Notes under the pieces: model-generated
What the model saw: only the letters and a program-made list of their open reading frames with translations
Told to the model about the DNA's origin: nothing
Databases searched by the model: none
Shown: positions 1,386 through 34,255 of the stretch, piece after piece
How positions within the stretch are numbered: the stretch's first letter is position 1
Layout of the letters: each line of letters starts with the position of its first letter
From: Synergistaceae bacterium
GTDB lineage: Bacteria > Synergistota > Synergistia > Synergistales > Aminobacteriaceae
NCBI GenBank assembly: GCA_017449415.1
Contig: JAFSJO010000112.1
Location: 1-37,539, forward strand
Direction: 5' to 3'
Length of the DNA: 37,539 nt
Translations under genes and position numbers: made by a program

Positions 1386-4352
1386 ATGACGAAAAAATTT
1401 TTAATTGCGGTCGTGTTGGCCTTGTTTGTGCTGGCGGACATAGGCGAGGGGTATGGTTATACTGACATTCAAGACTTGGCAGGCAAACAAATCGCTGTCG
1501 TAACAGGATCGACACACCCAGACATCACGCTGAAATTCATACCTACTGCAAAGCTCGTGTATTTCGACTCAATCCCCGATACTTTCACAGCACTCAGGGC
1601 GGGAAAAGTTGATGCTGTATGTACAGGCATTCCGATGGCAAAATTAGTCATGGCTGAAGATGACAGCATAGCTTTTCTGGGTGAACAGCTCACATATACG
1701 GAATGCGCGCCGATATTCACGAAAGCTGAAGCGGGTCAAAAACTCTGCGACGAGTTCAGCGAGTTTCTCAAAGCTCAGTGGGATAACGGAACGATCCATG
1801 AACTTGACTCGATATGGTTCGGCAGTGATGAGAGCAGGAAAGTCGTGAAGGATTATTCGAAGCTCCCGGCTCCTAACGGCACGCTCCGAATGGCCGCAGA
1901 TGTTTCAATAGCACCATGCACGTACGTTAAGGATAACGTGATTGTCGGCTATGATGTCGACTGCGCTGTGAGATTTTGCGAGGCTTACGGCTACGGGCTC
2001 GAAATTGTCCCGATGAACTTCAACGGAGTGATCCCTGCAGTTCAGACAGGCAAATGCGATTTCGGAATGGGCGGAATAACTCGCACCCCCGAGCGAGAAG
2101 AAAATGTCTTGTTCTCTTATCCCAACATCAAAACCGGAAATGCGTTCGTCGTGAGAAAATCTGACATAGCTACTAAAGCGAGCCTTCATGAACTCGAAGG
2201 GAAGAAAATCGGAGTTCAAGCAGGAACAAGAAGCCCCGAGGTAGCTAAGAAGTTCGTTCCGACCGCAAAACTTGTATATTACGACACGCCAGCTGATAAT
2301 CTCATCGCGCTCAGAATTGGGAAGATTGATGCTTCGTGTATGCCATACCCCACCGCAAGGCTTATGATGCATGATGGTGATGATATCGTTGCTCTAGGCG
2401 GGAAACTTACCAATACAAAAATCGCCTCAATCTTTTCCAAGACCGAAAAGGGCAAAAAACTCTGTAAAGAATACGAAGAGTTCCTTAAATCCTTGTGGGA
2501 CGACGGCACAATAAGCAAAATTGACTCTGTGTGGCTTGGCAGCGATGAGAGCAAGCGAGTTCTGAGAGATTATACTAAACTTCCAGCAACCAATGGAACT
2601 TTGAAAATGGCTGTTGACGCGTCATCAGCACCGTTCGTTTATGTAAAGAATAGTGCGATAGTCGGCTATGATATAGACATTGCTGTGAGGTTCTGCGAGG
2701 CCAAAGGTTATGCGCTGGAAGTTGTTCCTATGTCATTCGCTGCTGTTATTCCGGCGGTACATTCAGAGAAGTGTGATTTTTCATGCGGCATGACCTACAC
2801 CCCGGAACGTGCTGAGAGCGTGCTATTCTCGTCTACTCCCAACGCTGAAGTCGGAAGCGTGATGCTCGTAAAGAAATCGGACATGCAAGTTTCAAGTTCA
2901 GGGCAATACACGAAAATCCAAGACTTAGCTGGTAAGAAGATCGGAATTATTTTGGGAGCAAACCACGATATTTTCGTCGCTGAAAAAATCCCCGATGCCA
3001 AGATCGAATACTTCAATGATATCGGTGCTATAACGCTTGCTCTACAGACGGGCAAAATCGCTGCTTTCACAAACACTCTTCCTACAGCAATATACATGAC
3101 ACATGAGCATAAAGACATGTCTTATGTACCAGAACCGCTCGAAACTCCGTACACTTACTCGGCGTTTACTAATTCCGATAAAGGACATAAAGTTTGTGCT
3201 GAATATGCTGAGTTTGTAAAATCTTTGTGGGATAATGGAACTATTAAGCAGCTTGCGGAAAAATGGATCTACAGTGAAGACGAGCAACTCCGAACAACGG
3301 AGGACTACTCTAAACTTCCTGCAGACAATGGCACTCTCAGAATGGCAATAGACACAGGCCGTATGCCGTTCGCTTATGTCAAAGATAATAAGATTACGGG
3401 CTATGACATAGATATAGCAACAATGTTCTGCAAATCCAAAGGTTACGGGCTTGAAGTCCAATCTATGAATTTTGCAGGAATTTTAGGCTCAATCAAAACT
3501 GGAAAATGTGATTTAACCGGCAGCATAACGTGGACTGAAGAACGCGCTGAAACTATGTTGTTCTCGCCTGTCCCTAATGCAGAAACTCCAATAGTGCTGC
3601 TTGTAATGAAATCCACAGAGACCGAGACAAATACTTTCCTTGATGAACTGAAAGCCAGCTTTGAGCGTACGTTTATCCGTGAAGACAGGTGGAAGCTCTT
3701 TGCTGACGGGATAATCAGCACAATGATTATTACTGTATTGTCGATTGTATTTGGCACAATTCTGGGCTTCGTTGTGTATCTTTCATGCAGAGGCGGAAAC
3801 ATAATCGCTAACCTCACTACTCGTTTCTGCATATGGCTGATCCAGGGTATGCCTATGGTGGTGCTTTTGATGATCCTGTACTACATAGTATTCGGAAAAG
3901 TCGACATAGCAGGAATATGGGTGGCTGTGATTGCATTCTCGCTGACGTTTGGAGCAAGCGTCTACGGAATGATTCTATCTGGTGTGAACGCATTGGACAA
4001 AGGACAGCTCGAAGCAGCTTACGCATTGGGCTTCACTGACCGGCGAGCATTCTTCACGATTATACTTCCTCAGGCAGCACTGCACTTCATGCCGTCATAC
4101 AAGGCCACAGTTGTCGCGCTCATCAAGGCTACTGCGATTGTGGGCTACATTGCTGTGCAGGACTTGACGAAGATGGGCGACATAGTGAGGAGCAGAACGT
4201 ATGAAGCATTTTTCCCGCTGATAGCTGTTGCAGTGATATATTTTGTTCTTGCTGGAATGCTTAATGCCATTGTCAGAATTGTTCACAATCGGATCACGCC
4301 AGAAAAAAGGACGAGAAGAGATATATTAAGGGGGATTGATATCCATGATTAA
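1386..4352 (+). CDS. Polar amino-acid ABC importer: three fused substrate-binding units plus permease
   Basis: The protein has 988 residues. Residues 1-24 are a signal peptide. Three repeats follow, each made of a lobe-II-like half (LAGKQIAVVTG near 30, LEGKKIGVQAG near 270, LAGKKIGIILG near 514) and a lobe-I-like half (NGTLRMAAD near 164, NGTLKMAVD near 403, NGTLRMAID near 648, each with GYDxD and TPERxE-type motifs). Residues about 755-985 form a HisM/GlnP-type permease with the EAA loop GQLEAAYALGFTDRR. The fusion resembles GlnPQ-type importers, which carry tandem binding domains on the permease, but usual proteins run lobe I then lobe II. Here the chain starts with lobe II and ends with lobe I before the membrane part. 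It sits at the membrane with its binding units outside and overlaps its ATPase gene by 8 bases. The substrate is probably a polar amino acid; which one is not readable. Confidence 0.9.
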   Translation: MTKKFLIAVVLALFVLADIGEGYGYTDIQDLAGKQIAVVTGSTHPDITLKFIPTAKLVYFDSIPDTFTALRAGKVDAVCTGIPMAKLVMAEDDSIAFLGEQLTYTECAPIFTKAEAGQKLCDEFSEFLKAQWDNGTIHELDSIWFGSDESRKVVKDYSKLPAPNGTLRMAADVSIAPCTYVKDNVIVGYDVDCAVRFCEAYGYGLEIVPMNFNGVIPAVQTGKCDFGMGGITRTPEREENVLFSYPNIKTGNAFVVRKSDIATKASLHELEGKKIGVQAGTRSPEVAKKFVPTAKLVYYDTPADNLIALRIGKIDASCMPYPTARLMMHDGDDIVALGGKLTNTKIASIFSKTEKGKKLCKEYEEFLKSLWDDGTISKIDSVWLGSDESKRVLRDYTKLPATNGTLKMAVDASSAPFVYVKNSAIVGYDIDIAVRFCEAKGYALEVVPMSFAAVIPAVHSEKCDFSCGMTYTPERAESVLFSSTPNAEVGSVMLVKKSDMQVSSSGQYTKIQDLAGKKIGIILGANHDIFVAEKIPDAKIEYFNDIGAITLALQTGKIAAFTNTLPTAIYMTHEHKDMSYVPEPLETPYTYSAFTNSDKGHKVCAEYAEFVKSLWDNGTIKQLAEKWIYSEDEQLRTTEDYSKLPADNGTLRMAIDTGRMPFAYVKDNKITGYDIDIATMFCKSKGYGLEVQSMNFAGILGSIKTGKCDLTGSITWTEERAETMLFSPVPNAETPIVLLVMKSTETETNTFLDELKASFERTFIREDRWKLFADGIISTMIITVLSIVFGTILGFVVYLSCRGGNIIANLTTRFCIWLIQGMPMVVLLMILYYIVFGKVDIAGIWVAVIAFSLTFGASVYGMILSGVNALDKGQLEAAYALGFTDRRAFFTIILPQAALHFMPSYKATVVALIKATAIVGYIAVQDLTKMGDIVRSRTYEAFFPLIAVAVIYFVLAGMLNAIVRIVHNRITPEKRTRRDILRGIDIHD

Positions 4353-5418
4353 GTTGGAGCATGTCAAGAAAGTTTATCCGAACGTTACGCCGCTCTCAGA
4401 TGTCAGCACAGAGATCCATGACGGCGATGTAATATCCGTGATCGGGCCTTCCGGGACTGGCAAAAGCACGCTGTTACGCTGCATCAATCTTCTTGAACGT
4501 CCTGACGGTGGCCGAATATTTCTTGACAATGAAGAAATAACTTCACCAAAATGCAATGTCCCCAAGGTCAGACAGAAAATGGGAATGGTGTTTCAGTCGT
4601 TCAATTTGTTCGGGCATCTTACGGTTATCGAAAACATCATGCTCTCACCCGTGAAGCTGAAAGGAGTGAGCAGGCAATCAGCGTTCGATGAAGGAATGAA
4701 ACTTCTGCGTCAGGTCGGACTTGCCGACAAGATGCTGAATTATCCTCATGAGCTTTCGGGCGGCCAGAAGCAGAGAATAGCAATCGCCCGCGCGTTGGCA
4801 ATGAACCCAACTGTCATACTCTTTGACGAGCCTACAAGTGCGCTTGATCCTACAATGGTGGGTGAAGTTCAGGCCGTCATCAGGGACTTGGCAAAGATCG
4901 GGAAAACGATGATGATCGTAACGCACGAGATGAATTTTGCGCGTACTGTCAGCAACAGAGTTTTCTACATGGACGAAGGCGGAATTTACGAGGACGGAAG
5001 CCCCGAACAAATTTTCAGCTCACCGACGCGAGATAAGACACGAAGATTTATTCAAAGGCTCAAAGTTCTTGAAATCGAGATCAACGGCAGAGATTATGAT
5101 TTTCCCGCCGCCGTCGCGAGCATTGAGAATTACTGCAGGAAAAATCTTGTTGCTCATCGTACGTGCAACAGGCTTCAGCTTGCCTTTGAAGAGCTTGTGC
5201 AGCAGACATTGCTTCCAAGACTCGATGATCCTGACGTCAATGTCGTGATTGAGTATTCGGAGGAAAAGAACGAGGCCGCAATGAACGTTAATTGCAACCT
5301 GAAGAGCGTAAATCTTTTGGAGACGGCTGACGAACTCTCCCTAACTGTCTTGAAAGGCATTACGTCAAACATTGAGTATTCCGACGAAGACGGAATTATA
5401 AGACTGATCGTTTCATAA
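4345..5418 (+). CDS. Amino-acid ABC transporter ATPase with extra C-terminal domain
   Basis: This energises the fused importer just upstream. From ATG 4345 it has 357 residues. The ATG overlaps the end of the permease gene and lies 9 bases after AGGGGGA, which fits better than the in-frame TTG at 4336. Walker A GPSGTGKST is near residue 34, LSGGQKQR near 137, ILFDEPTSALDP near 158, then the H-loop IVTHEM, all typical of GlnQ/HisP. GlnQ proteins usually end near 245 residues. Here about 110 more follow. That tail includes LQLAFEELVQQ and ends in alternating hydrophobic strands, which recalls the N-box region of RsbW/SpoIIAB-type GHKL ATPases with the key Asn missing. The tail assignment is inference only. 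Confidence 0.92.
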   Translation: MIKLEHVKKVYPNVTPLSDVSTEIHDGDVISVIGPSGTGKSTLLRCINLLERPDGGRIFLDNEEITSPKCNVPKVRQKMGMVFQSFNLFGHLTVIENIMLSPVKLKGVSRQSAFDEGMKLLRQVGLADKMLNYPHELSGGQKQRIAIARALAMNPTVILFDEPTSALDPTMVGEVQAVIRDLAKIGKTMMIVTHEMNFARTVSNRVFYMDEGGIYEDGSPEQIFSSPTRDKTRRFIQRLKVLEIEINGRDYDFPAAVASIENYCRKNLVAHRTCNRLQLAFEELVQQTLLPRLDDPDVNVVIEYSEEKNEAAMNVNCNLKSVNLLETADELSLTVLKGITSNIEYSDEDGIIRLIVS

Positions 5419-29933: not shown

Positions 29934-30626
29934 CTAAAGATTTTTCAAGCTCGCAACGTCATCGGGCGTTACGTTATGATTTATTTTTATGTGCATGTCC
30001 TGAGAAGTTCTCCGTGTAACTGTGAATTTTTTTGTCTTTGTGAATGTCAGCCGAAAAATATTTTTGCCCTGAGCCAGCCACTTGCGCTCGTACTTGGTCG
30101 TGATGCCGCGAGCCGGGTTGACCTCGAAGCTCTCCGCGTTCAAAGCCTCATGGAGGCCAAGAACTTTCCAGACCTCGTTGGAATAGTCTTCATCGTCCGA
30201 GACCATCTCGAAGACCCCGCCGAGCTTCAAGACAGCCGCAAGACCGTCAGCGAAGTCCCGAGCCGTAACTCGTCTGTGAGCGTTGCCATTGCCGGGCCAC
30301 GGACACGGGAATTGCATTATGATTTTCTCGAGCGTCTCGTCGGCGAACAGCTCACGAAGCATATAACGAGCGTCGGTGTTGATGATCCTCAGGTTGCTGA
30401 GACCTCCGGCGCGCCGCGCACATCGAAGGACGCATGACTGAGAGATTTCGATCCCGTACAAAAAAATTTCGGGCTTGGCCTCAGCGTATTGCACTGTAAA
30501 TTCGCCGTTGCCAAAGCCGATTTCGAGTTGCGTGTGAAGCCTGACGGGGAGAGGCTGACCGCTCTCGGGCTTTATGATGATGCCGTATTGCGGCCGAGCC
30601 TGCGTCGTGGCTGTCAGAAAGTCCAT
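29934..30626 (-). CDS. trmB: tRNA (guanine-46-N7)-methyltransferase, ended by in-frame TAG
   Basis: The protein has 230 residues to the TAG. TrmB adds the m7G46 methyl group to tRNAs. SAM motif I is QLEIGFGNGEFTVQYA, then GIEISQSCVLRC. The family block FPDPWPK appears as FPCPWPGNGNAHRR, so a conserved Asp is Cys. Its ATG overlaps the phosphohexomutase gene by 13 bases. The frame continues well beyond the stop, so the mature enzyme could be longer or the gene could be decaying. Both the changed motif and the TAG argue for looking at relatives before calling it functional. Confidence 0.88.
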   Translation of the reverse strand: MDFLTATTQARPQYGIIIKPESGQPLPVRLHTQLEIGFGNGEFTVQYAEAKPEIFLYGIEISQSCVLRCARRAGGLSNLRIINTDARYMLRELFADETLEKIIMQFPCPWPGNGNAHRRVTARDFADGLAAVLKLGGVFEMVSDDEDYSNEVWKVLGLHEALNAESFEVNPARGITTKYERKWLAQGKNIFRLTFTKTKKFTVTRRTSQDMHIKINHNVTPDDVASLKNL

Positions 30627-31996
30627 TTGAAGTCCGGCAATCCTTCCTCGGTCAGAATATTTTTAACGTCGCTCATGATCCTTTCGAGAGCCTCCTGCGT
30701 CTTGCCTTCACATCGAACGACCATGACAGGCTGAGTGTTGGAAGCTCGTATCAAGCCCCAGCCGTCCGGGTATAAGATCCTCACGCCGTCGATGACACTG
30801 CAGTTATATTTAGCCTGAACTTTCTCCTTAATCCTCTCGGCGATCTGAAACTTCACGTCATCGTCGCAGGGGATCCGGATCTCTTCGGTCGATGGATAGA
30901 TCGGCACGCCGCGCATCAGACGCGACAGAGGCTCTTTGAACTTCGACATTATCCGCAGGACTCGCCCGGCCGCGTAGAACGCGTCATCATGTCCAAAAAA
31001 TTCATCAGCGAAGAACATATGACCCGAATACTCGCCCGCGAACAAAGCTCCGATCTCGCGCATCTTGGCCTTGATGAGCGAGTGCCCGGACTTCCAATAC
31101 AAGACCTTTCCACCGAACTTCTCAGCCAACTCCGGCAGCACGAGGCTGCATTTCGGTTCGACAATCACGTCCGCGCCTTTGTGAGTTGCCAAGATCTCTT
31201 TCCAATACAATGTCATGAGCCTGTCGCCGAAGATCACTTCGCCCTCATCGTCAACGACTCCGACCCTGTCAGCGTCCCCATCGAATGCAAAGCCGACATC
31301 AGCCCTCAAAGCTCTCACTCGCTCGATTAAAGTCTGAAGATTTTCGCGCTTCTGAGGGTCAGGGTGATGGTTTGGGAAATGTCCGTCTGGCTCGTCGAAC
31401 AGCGACACACATTCACAGCCCAGAGCCTCGAAATATTTTCGAGCCGTAACGCCCGCCGCGCCGTTGCCGGAGTCGCAGACTATCTTAAATTTTTTCGAGA
31501 ATGGAAGCGTGAACTTCGACACGAGCATCTTTATATAGTCGCCGTTAATGTCGACGTGGGTCAGCTTGCCCGAGCCTCTCTCAAAATTTCCCGACTCGGC
31601 GATGAGCCTGATATTCTGAACATCGTCGCCCCACAGCGTGCCATGGCCGTAACATAACTTCATTCCGTTCATCTCGGGGGGATTGTGCGAGCCTGTAACC
31701 ATGATCCCGCCGCTGAGATTGAATTTTATCAAGCTCCAATAGAGCATCGGAGTTGTAACGAGTCCAACGTCGATAACGTCGAAGCCCGCCGACATGATAC
31801 CCGCGATCACAGCGTCTTTTATTCGCGGTGTCGAGAGCCTCGCGTCGCCTCCGACAGCCACAGCCCCCAAGACTTCAACGCGCTTCAGCCACGTCGCGTA
31901 AGCCTGCCCGATCAGCTTGACGGTCTCGTCAGTGAGTTCTTGATCGGCGTTGCCGCGTATGTCGTATTCTCTAAAAATATTTTTTGGTATTGTCAT
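30614..31996 (-). CDS. Phosphomannomutase/phosphoglucomutase (ManB/AlgC-type)
   Basis: The protein has 460 residues. It is an alpha-D-phosphohexomutase that interconverts hexose 1- and 6-phosphates for surface polysaccharide precursors. The active phosphoserine is Ser103 in VTGSHNP. The metal loop is DGDADRVGV, the sugar loop EYSGHMFF, and the phosphate-binding site RASNTQPVMVVRCEG at the C-terminus. GEYSG-type sugar loops occur in enzymes with dual mannose/glucose activity. It starts 1 base after the binding-protein stop and leads into trmB. All motifs are intact and length is normal. Confidence 0.94.
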   Translation of the reverse strand: MTIPKNIFREYDIRGNADQELTDETVKLIGQAYATWLKRVEVLGAVAVGGDARLSTPRIKDAVIAGIMSAGFDVIDVGLVTTPMLYWSLIKFNLSGGIMVTGSHNPPEMNGMKLCYGHGTLWGDDVQNIRLIAESGNFERGSGKLTHVDINGDYIKMLVSKFTLPFSKKFKIVCDSGNGAAGVTARKYFEALGCECVSLFDEPDGHFPNHHPDPQKRENLQTLIERVRALRADVGFAFDGDADRVGVVDDEGEVIFGDRLMTLYWKEILATHKGADVIVEPKCSLVLPELAEKFGGKVLYWKSGHSLIKAKMREIGALFAGEYSGHMFFADEFFGHDDAFYAAGRVLRIMSKFKEPLSRLMRGVPIYPSTEEIRIPCDDDVKFQIAERIKEKVQAKYNCSVIDGVRILYPDGWGLIRASNTQPVMVVRCEGKTQEALERIMSDVKNILTEEGLPDFKWTF

Positions 31997-31997
31997 T

Positions 31998-32837
31998 TTA
32001 CTTCTTTCCGATCAAGAAGACTTGATTCCAACCATAATAAGGCTTGGAGTAGATTACTCCCTCCGTGATGTCTGACTGATGGACTTCATGGCCGTCTTTG
32101 ATTGCTCCCAAGACCTCGATCCAGAAAATCGCGTCAACGCGTCCCGACTTCAGAGCTGACATTCTCGCGCCCGTCTCGATATTCACGAGGTTAATATTAA
32201 CGTGAAGCCGTCGGCCTATCTCAGCGAGCAGAGCAGTGTTGAACCCGGCGGGTGTCCCGTCTGCGGCAATGTAGTCGATCGGCGGCAGGTCTCCTGTAAC
32301 AGCTACGTTGATCGTCTCAGCGTCGTCGAATTTGTCGAATGTTATGACTGGCGGCTCTTTGTACGTGAGCGTAATGTAATCTCTGACGAGCAGAGCCAGC
32401 GCGCCGTTGTTCATTTCCGCGAGAGCTTCGTTGAAGCGTCTTTGAAGGTCAGCTTTCTCTTCCATGAAGCCGAATGAGAGCGCAATAGGCGTCGTCCCGA
32501 TCATGACGCCTCTCAGAACATACTCGGGGTTATTCCTGAGCATGTACTCGCCGGAGAACGCGGGAGCTAATATCACGTCGACCTCGCCTCTGTTGAGAGC
32601 CAACTGCATCGCCATGAATGAATCATAGAAACGGACGCGGAGATCAGAAGCCTTCACGCCGTCAGAAAACACTTCAGCCGTTATGAGAGCATTATGAATA
32701 TCTTCATTCGAGAACGCAACTTGATATTCTTCCTCCGAGGAGTTCGCTTTGCTCAAAATCCCTGCCATGGTCTCGGAATAAGCACAGCACGCAAGAGTTA
32801 AAACCAACATCAAAGCCAACGCGCAGATTTTTTTCAT
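31998..32837 (-). CDS. Periplasmic binding-type protein with lobes in reversed order
   Basis: The protein has 279 residues. The signal peptide is ICALALMLVLTLACCAYS (CCA with a possible lipobox-like Cys). The first half resembles lobe II of type-2 solute-binding proteins: VRFYDSFMAMQLALNRGEVD, then ALAEMNNGALALLVRDYI, which is normally the C-terminal helix. The second half resembles lobe I: INVAVTGDLPPIDYIAADGT, PAGFNTALLAEIGRRL, MSALKSGRVDAIFW and YSKPYYGWNQVFLIGK. Family members run the other way round. The same order occurs in the fused importer at the left of the window. No permease or ATPase gene stands next to it, so it may be a sensor or an orphan receptor. Confidence 0.85.
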   Translation of the reverse strand: MKKICALALMLVLTLACCAYSETMAGILSKANSSEEEYQVAFSNEDIHNALITAEVFSDGVKASDLRVRFYDSFMAMQLALNRGEVDVILAPAFSGEYMLRNNPEYVLRGVMIGTTPIALSFGFMEEKADLQRRFNEALAEMNNGALALLVRDYITLTYKEPPVITFDKFDDAETINVAVTGDLPPIDYIAADGTPAGFNTALLAEIGRRLHVNINLVNIETGARMSALKSGRVDAIFWIEVLGAIKDGHEVHQSDITEGVIYSKPYYGWNQVFLIGKK

Positions 32838-32890: not shown

Positions 32891-34255
32891 TTACAGCACG
32901 TACAGCGAGATCCCGTAGATCGCCAACACAGCCACGACACCTTGGATCAGCGTCGCCATCGTCTGAGCCTTATACGCCGTGTTCAGATCCATGTCGGAGA
33001 ACTGCGTAACGACCCAGAAGTAAGAGTCATTGGCGTGCGACACGACCATAGCTCCGCTTCCGATTGCCAACGTGGCAAGCACAGCTCCCATAGGCGCACC
33101 AAGCCCCAGCGACGCAAGCATCGGCGCAATGATCTGAGCTGTCGTTACGATCGCGACCGTCGAAGAGCCTTGCGCAGTCTTCAAAGCCGCCGCAATGATG
33201 AACGGGAGGAAAATTCCGAAATTGTACGAGGACAGAGCTTCGCCGATGTAAGTCCCGACTCCGCTCGCCGAGATGACCGCGCCAAGTCCGCCGCCGGCCG
33301 CCGTGATCATGATGATGTTGGCTCCGTCTTTCACGCCCTCGCCGATCCAGCCGTTAGTTACTTCCTCGGTGAACGGAGCTAAGAAGAAGCAAAGCACCAC
33401 GCCGATCGAAAGAGCTATGACGGGGTTGCCTAAGAAGCTCGAGACCACGAAGAGCATGGACTCCTTGCCGCCGATCTTCGCCAACGTCGTCGGGTAGCTG
33501 ATGAACGAACTGACTCCGATAAGGATCAACGGAACCAAAATCGGAGCGAACGACTTGAAAGCCGAAGGCAGCTTTCCATACTTGGCCTTCAACTCTTCGT
33601 ACGACTCGCCGCTCTCGGCGTTATCATCGAACGGGACAGGGAGCTTCGGCCCGGCGATAAGCGCGTAAACGTAACCTGCGATGACCGAGATGATCGAGAC
33701 GACCATTCCCCACATTATGACCATGCCCAAATCTGCGCCAAGCTCATTAGCTGCGGCTATGGGGCCGGGGGTCGGAGGGACGAGCGTGTGTGTCGCGTAC
33801 AGACCTGTCGACAGAGCGATTGCCATCACAGAGAGGCGAATACCACTGCGACGCGCCAAGGACTTATTCAGCGACGAAAGGATTACGAACCCTGAATCGC
33901 AGAACACCGGGATCGACACGACCCAGCCTATAAGGCTCATAGCGAGCGCAGGACGCTTCTCACCAACGACCTTCAAAACGCTGTCAGCCATCGTGAAAGC
34001 CGCGCCGGACTTTTCGAGCATTGCGCCGATGATCGTACCGAGCAAAATCACGATACCGATCCCGCGACATGTCCCGCCGAAGCCGTTTAATATCGTGTCG
34101 AGGACTTTCGCCGGAGCCATTCCGACCGCAAGCCCCATCGCAAGCGCGACAGCGAACAGAGCCACGAACGGGTGAAACTTCATCTTGGAGATCAACAGCA
34201 CCATTAATATAATGGCCACGACCAGAATTACAACCAACATTGAACCCTGAACCAT
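32891..34255 (-). CDS. GntP-family gluconate/organic-acid permease
   Basis: The protein has 454 residues, starting at ATG 34255 about 9 bases after AAGGAGAG. A dozen or so membrane segments match the Gnt family of H+ symporters: FHPFVALFAVALAMGLAVG, GFGGTCRGIGIVILLGTIIG, LVPPTPGPIAAANELGADLG and HANDSYFWVVTQFSDMD are hallmarks. Known members carry gluconate, related sugar acids, glycerate or D-serine; the substrate here is unknown. It heads the leftward gene train, 53 bases ahead of the binding protein, with its own TATAAT upstream. No gluconate kinase or dehydratase gene is near. Confidence 0.92.
   Translation of the reverse strand: MVQGSMLVVILVVAIILMVLLISKMKFHPFVALFAVALAMGLAVGMAPAKVLDTILNGFGGTCRGIGIVILLGTIIGAMLEKSGAAFTMADSVLKVVGEKRPALAMSLIGWVVSIPVFCDSGFVILSSLNKSLARRSGIRLSVMAIALSTGLYATHTLVPPTPGPIAAANELGADLGMVIMWGMVVSIISVIAGYVYALIAGPKLPVPFDDNAESGESYEELKAKYGKLPSAFKSFAPILVPLILIGVSSFISYPTTLAKIGGKESMLFVVSSFLGNPVIALSIGVVLCFFLAPFTEEVTNGWIGEGVKDGANIIMITAAGGGLGAVISASGVGTYIGEALSSYNFGIFLPFIIAAALKTAQGSSTVAIVTTAQIIAPMLASLGLGAPMGAVLATLAIGSGAMVVSHANDSYFWVVTQFSDMDLNTAYKAQTMATLIQGVVAVLAIYGISLYVL

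Follow-up and report, generated by a model that had tools for sequence, protein, structure and literature searches.

Solute-binding proteins (SBPs) of the SBP_bac_3 family, such as GlnH, HisJ, and ArgT (PDB 1ggg, 1hpb, 1lst, and 4zv1), are single bilobed exported proteins in which the N-terminal part of lobe I is followed by lobe II and then by the C-terminal part of lobe I. In GlnPQ of Lactococcus lactis (PDB 6h30; PMC8025302), tandem SBP_bac_3 domains are fused N-terminal to a PAAT permease as two canonical units, (I-II)x2, and the length of the II-to-I interdomain linker in canonical GlnPQ differs between species (PMC8025302). Large ligand-binding folds rarely occur in nature in circularly permuted form, and a periplasmic binding protein that does, the type I SBP Tp0684/MglB-2 of Treponema pallidum, has the cluster B (sugar) fold and a cut that moves N-lobe strands only (PMC4990184). 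Our literature search for permuted type II SBPs returned only engineered biosensors and Tp0684, with no family described.

The window analyzed here, the whole stretch of 37,539 nucleotides from a Synergistaceae bacterium, carries at positions 31998 to 32837 a gene for a 279-residue protein that resembles GlnH, HisJ, and ArgT in that both of its halves are homologous to theirs and it is one exported protein, predicted to be bilobed. It differs from them in that the order of the halves is almost certainly circularly permuted and in that its subfamily has near-invariant R225 and F238-W239 residues in place of the T-x-x-R carboxylate motif. Tp0684/MglB-2, which shares with this protein a natural circular permutation, is the closest natural precedent that we found for a permuted type II SBP. 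The family described here differs from it in having the type II fold, a swap of whole lobes, and additional multi-copy and permease-fused forms; the sequence matches type II amino-acid SBPs and not the type I sugar-binding fold of the Tp0684 type. Of the solved sequences shown by PDB sequence searches, only the tandem 6h30 was collinear with the permuted order. Our overall reading, to which we assign a probability of about 0.62, is that the protein is a naturally circularly permuted type II SBP acting as an orphan supplier of a shared ABC importer. Its features are given below, where A1 denotes a profile of 14 relatives of the protein.

31998–32837, minus strand: permuted SBP_bac_3-like solute-binding protein, 279 residues (open reading frame; Pfam PF00497, E 1.2e-13; AlphaFold2 model; rotated profile comparison)
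32775–32837, minus strand: predicted signal peptide, approximately residues 1–21 (sequence; helix 2–16 in the model; AxA-type ends in relatives)
32367–32774, minus strand: lobe II plus the C-terminal helices of lobe I, the canonical second half, approximately residues 22–157 (A1 residues 56–154 on 4zv1 131–230; hhalign 45–137 on canonical 189–285)
32322–32366, minus strand: new linker from the old C-terminus to the old N-terminus, approximately residues 158–172 (normalized gap from lobe II to the N-terminal part of lobe I, 16)
32001–32321, minus strand: N-terminal part of lobe I, the canonical first half, ending in the hinge strand, approximately residues 173–279 (Pfam residues 176–237 on model positions 1–62; A1 residues 176–274 on 4zv1 11–104)
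32004–32036, minus strand: C-terminal strand, residues 268–278, equivalent to the canonical first hinge strand (strand 268–278 in the model; alignment to 4zv1 up to residue 104)

The gene has an ATG start preceded by an AGGAGA ribosome-binding site, and its product begins with a signal peptide, judged by inspection from an N-terminal hydrophobic helix and an AxA-type end, that the sequence suggests would be cleaved near AYS-E, after the serine. The Pfam match (51.4 bits against a cutoff of 26.4) covers only model positions 1 to 62 of 132, and this lobe I start falls in the second half of the protein. The A1 profile likewise aligns with the chain of 4zv1 as two stretches in reversed order. These matches agree, together with the coordinates, start, and signal peptide, with the initial annotation of an exported protein that places lobe II before lobe I; the full order is lobe II, the C-terminal part of lobe I, and then its N-terminal part. 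For a profile-level comparison, we used 12 canonical SBPs from Synergistota genomes, one of them from the same genome as the 279-residue protein. In its native order, the query-family profile aligned with this canonical profile as two separate reversed halves scoring 79.8 and 74.7. With the lobe I block placed first, the two profiles formed a single 213-column alignment with a score of 144.3 (E 5e-21), approximately the sum of the two native-order halves. The better-conserved sister permuted subfamily, L005 (contig C140), behaved in the same manner, with native-order scores of 200.3 and 136.1 and a rotated score of 328.7 (E 8e-50). The reversed lobe order, common to 163 full-length family ORFs, is far beyond chance.

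Structure prediction, which had been proposed as a check, supports the permutation. The AlphaFold2 model built from A1 is confident (pLDDT 84.1, pTM 0.81) and has the order of strands and helices expected for a bilobed type II periplasmic-binding-protein fold, but in Foldseek searches of the PDB it superposes poorly on binding-protein folds when the chains are followed in order (TM 0.28–0.45, rmsd 7–12 Å among the top 50). A canonical SBP from the same genome (L003), modeled in the same way with a similarly shallow alignment, gave mostly TM values of 0.7 to 0.93 and rmsd values of 1.8 to 3.3 Å, with a few lower TM values against differently closed structures. The poor in-order fit of the 279-residue protein is therefore not simply a product of the method. 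These values also bear on whether the topology is canonical after all and similar lobes were mis-assigned when the sequence was first read. Type II lobes are similar in fold, and the in-order Foldseek alignment spans nearly the whole chain; nevertheless, given the low TM values relative to the control and sequence matches that are lobe-specific and reversed in Pfam, 4zv1, and the profile rotation, we give this explanation next to no weight. Only slightly more credible, and still extremely unlikely, is that the gene is what truncation or frame disruption has left of a tandem SBP or SBP-permease fusion and does not encode a folded permuted protein. The lobe order does resemble that of an internal stretch of a tandem array, a kind of array also present in the same genome. 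Against a remnant stand the gene's own start, ribosome-binding site, and signal peptide, the confident model, and the 163 full-length ORFs of 230 to 350 residues with conserved positions. Comparison with a 69% identical copy gives a pN of 0.18 against a saturated pS of 0.80 (pN/pS 0.22), which indicates that the protein is under selection.

In GlnBP-type hinges, the first hinge strand runs into lobe II. The C-terminal strand of the 279-residue protein corresponds to this strand, which would place the new termini in a lobe II loop, directly after the first hinge strand. The old C-terminus would be joined to the old N-terminus by a linker of approximately 16 residues inside lobe I, and with the cut at this position, both hinge strands would remain covalent in the chain and Venus flytrap closure would be retained. 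Lobe II would then bear both chain ends, a role that falls to lobe I in canonical proteins.

The homologs are collinear with the 279-residue protein. We recovered the 163 full-length ORFs as a set that includes near-copies, and in a scan of genome contigs with query-family motifs all loci kept belonged to Synergistota, so the close relatives that the initial annotation had suggested seeking in this phylum do exist. Near-invariant among them are G182, D183, P185, P186, D188, R225, D235, F238, W239, S264, and Y267. A scan of named genomes returned Synergistaceae/Fretibacterium metagenome-assembled genomes, most of them from the gut of goats, deer, sheep, and reindeer. The A1 profile has 4 to 27 matches in every same-genus genome examined, as well as strong ones in genus g14 of the same family. 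In the rest of the phylum, the permuted query finds almost exclusively half-matches, which is what canonical proteins should give. An L005-type permuted SBP is also found in another genus of the family (L190, genome G009).

The same window contains a permuted array fused to a permease, followed by an adjoining ATPase gene:

1386–4352, plus strand: (lobe II-lobe I)x3-permease fusion, 988 residues, with the PAAT-type ABC permease last (lobe HMMs; BPD_transp_1 at residues 790–971)
4336–5418, plus strand: ABC ATPase adjoining the fusion (Pfam ABC_tran, E 1.1e-35)

Lobe HMM matches in the fusion lie at residues 27–144/164–258, 266–381/403–496, and 510–628/648–732, with lobe II first in each pair. 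The initial annotation had counted two independent genes of the same order; both are indeed permuted, the second being a run of three permuted units fused to a permease. We mapped the lobes of 17 SBP-permease fusion ORFs, two of them incomplete, with separate HMMs for lobe I and lobe II. Lobe II comes first in all 17, and in the complete ones lobe I is the last lobe ahead of the permease, giving the architecture (II-I)n-permease, where n ranges from 1 to 12. The linker from lobe II to lobe I is near-constant (16.8 ± 0.86 residues, n = 70), whereas that from lobe I to lobe II is variable (13.2 ± 5.0 residues, n = 53; Levene p 4e-20). The corresponding II-to-I gap in the single proteins is 15 to 18 residues, after normalization, in 11 of the 14 family members, and in canonical single proteins the gap from lobe I to lobe II is 5.6 ± 1.9 residues (n = 17). 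The constraint on linker length is thus the reverse of that in a canonical tandem such as GlnPQ, which argues that the permuted pair (II-I) is the folding domain. These linker statistics, the rotated profiles, the model with its canonical control, and the full-length collinear homologs strongly support the earlier proposal of a true circularly permuted family rather than truncation. The longest of the arrays, a 3249-residue protein (L176:3857–13606, genome G128), ends in an ABC permease after twelve permuted SBP units, and fusions with n of 2, 3, 5, 6, and 8 occur in other genomes.

A tandem SBP gene is the most likely source of the permuted topology. Across the SBD1-SBD2 junction of L. lactis GlnPQ (6h30), the alignment of a sister permuted SBP is unbroken, as such an origin would predict, and a tandem gene that lost its first lobe I and its last lobe II would be left as a permuted one. 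In a tree of 68 units, the query-type, L005-type, and array units each fall on one side of a branch (support for the arrays is weak, at 48), and the deep relations between the permuted groups have a support of 0, compatible with one origin or with several. We tentatively entertain, as something short of an even chance, the broader scenario that a single permutation of a type II binding protein in Synergistota turned lobe II into the anchoring lobe, after which free-standing permuted SBPs multiplied and head-to-tail (II-I)n chains of up to twelve domains came to be carried on one permease; this would be a modular multi-specificity importer not described before. A single-unit permuted SBP-permease fusion in a different family of the order (L200:1489–3027, genome G064) suggests either an older origin or transfer.

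The neighbors of the 279-residue protein's gene are two genes on the same strand:

32891–34255, minus strand: GntP-family permease (gntP), direct upstream neighbor (Pfam E 2.4e-100; adjacency to the SBP gene not conserved)
30614–31996, minus strand: phosphoglucomutase/phosphomannomutase (pgm), direct downstream neighbor (Pfam; the usual direct neighbor of gntP in sister genomes)

The earlier statement that no transporter gene is adjacent, from which it was suggested that the protein may sense or hand over ligands, does not hold, since gntP lies only 53 bp upstream; what is absent next door is an ABC permease or ATPase, both of which adjoin close paralogs. In most sister genomes of the same genus, gntP and pgm are adjacent without an SBP gene between them, and an SBP is present at 2 of 29 gntP loci. 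The gene is a relocated paralog, and its presence between gntP and pgm is a gain or loss within the genus. A terminator scan of the minus strand between gntP and the SBP gene found none, which is uninformative. Query-type paralogs are often found instead in operons that combine SpoIIE/HATPase and STAS partner-switching genes with two to four SBPs, an ABC permease, and an ABC ATPase, the last two directly downstream of the SBPs. One such operon, L173 on contig C122 (genome G000), comprises genes for a SpoIIE-HATPase, STAS proteins, three query-type SBPs, an ABC permease, and an ABC ATPase. The ATPase has a C-terminal extension of approximately 120 residues with a weak HATPase_c_2 match (E 0.027); we do not claim an anti-sigma HATPase domain on this extension, given that Pfam E value and a profile comparison with the SpoIIE HATPase that covered 31 columns at 1% probability.

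The Thr/Arg carboxylate motif (GMTITxER; T-x-x-R) is absent from the query family, which has FWxE/R with the near-invariant W239 instead, and the sister subfamily L005 retains the GMTITxER-type amino-acid motif. With this motif lost, the ligand is probably something other than a plain alpha-amino acid. We detected only four permeases of this type in the genome, against at least a dozen SBP genes, so a small number of permeases probably serves many SBPs. Given the permuted order, we modestly favor service to a shared ABC importer: the orphan SBP would capture such a ligand and deliver it to the importer, most plausibly a permease and ATPase of the C122 type beside its closest paralogs, the partner and the ligand class being our best guesses from these patterns.

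The main rival to a transport role is that query-type SBPs provide sensor input, signaling ligand to the SpoIIE/STAS partner-switching proteins. Contig C122 and many relatives encode a SpoIIE-HATPase with a Cache domain and STAS proteins together with two to four query-type SBPs in a row, and both the excess of SBP genes over permeases and the loss of the canonical amino-acid arginine motif would suit such a role. Yet the same operons carry the ABC permease and ATPase directly 3′ of the SBPs, the SpoIIE protein has a Cache sensor domain of its own, and the gene at 31998 to 32837 lies away from any signaling gene; we hold sensing to be unlikely, at roughly one chance in a handful. Much less probable is a partnership with the adjacent GntP permease, a secondary transporter for which the SBP would catch the ligand. 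The same strand and short spacing invite the idea, but GntP carriers belong to the secondary transporters and operate without binding proteins, and because gntP and pgm are mostly adjacent without an SBP, the position of the SBP gene next to gntP is no evidence of partnership. We rejected a functional link between the SBP and GntP on the survey of the 29 loci. Supply of a shared ABC importer remains our preferred role for the 279-residue protein.

Annotation pipelines score permuted SBPs as partial SBP matches, and the family is thus probably hidden in databases. The (II-I)n arrays are ready-made permuted scaffolds for biosensor design. In the genome studied here, permuted order is found on contigs C104 (the 279-residue protein and the fusion), C122 (three in a row), C33, C89, C140, and C127, and canonical-order SBPs on contigs C114, C49, and C56 (two). 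Because the same genomes encode both canonical and permuted versions of one fold, it is possible to compare directly how topology affects folding, closure, and docking. One canonical-order SBP-like protein, L003:1363–2181 on contig C49, is structurally closest to cyclohexadienyl dehydratases, with 47% identity to 5jos, and may be an enzyme instead of a binding protein.
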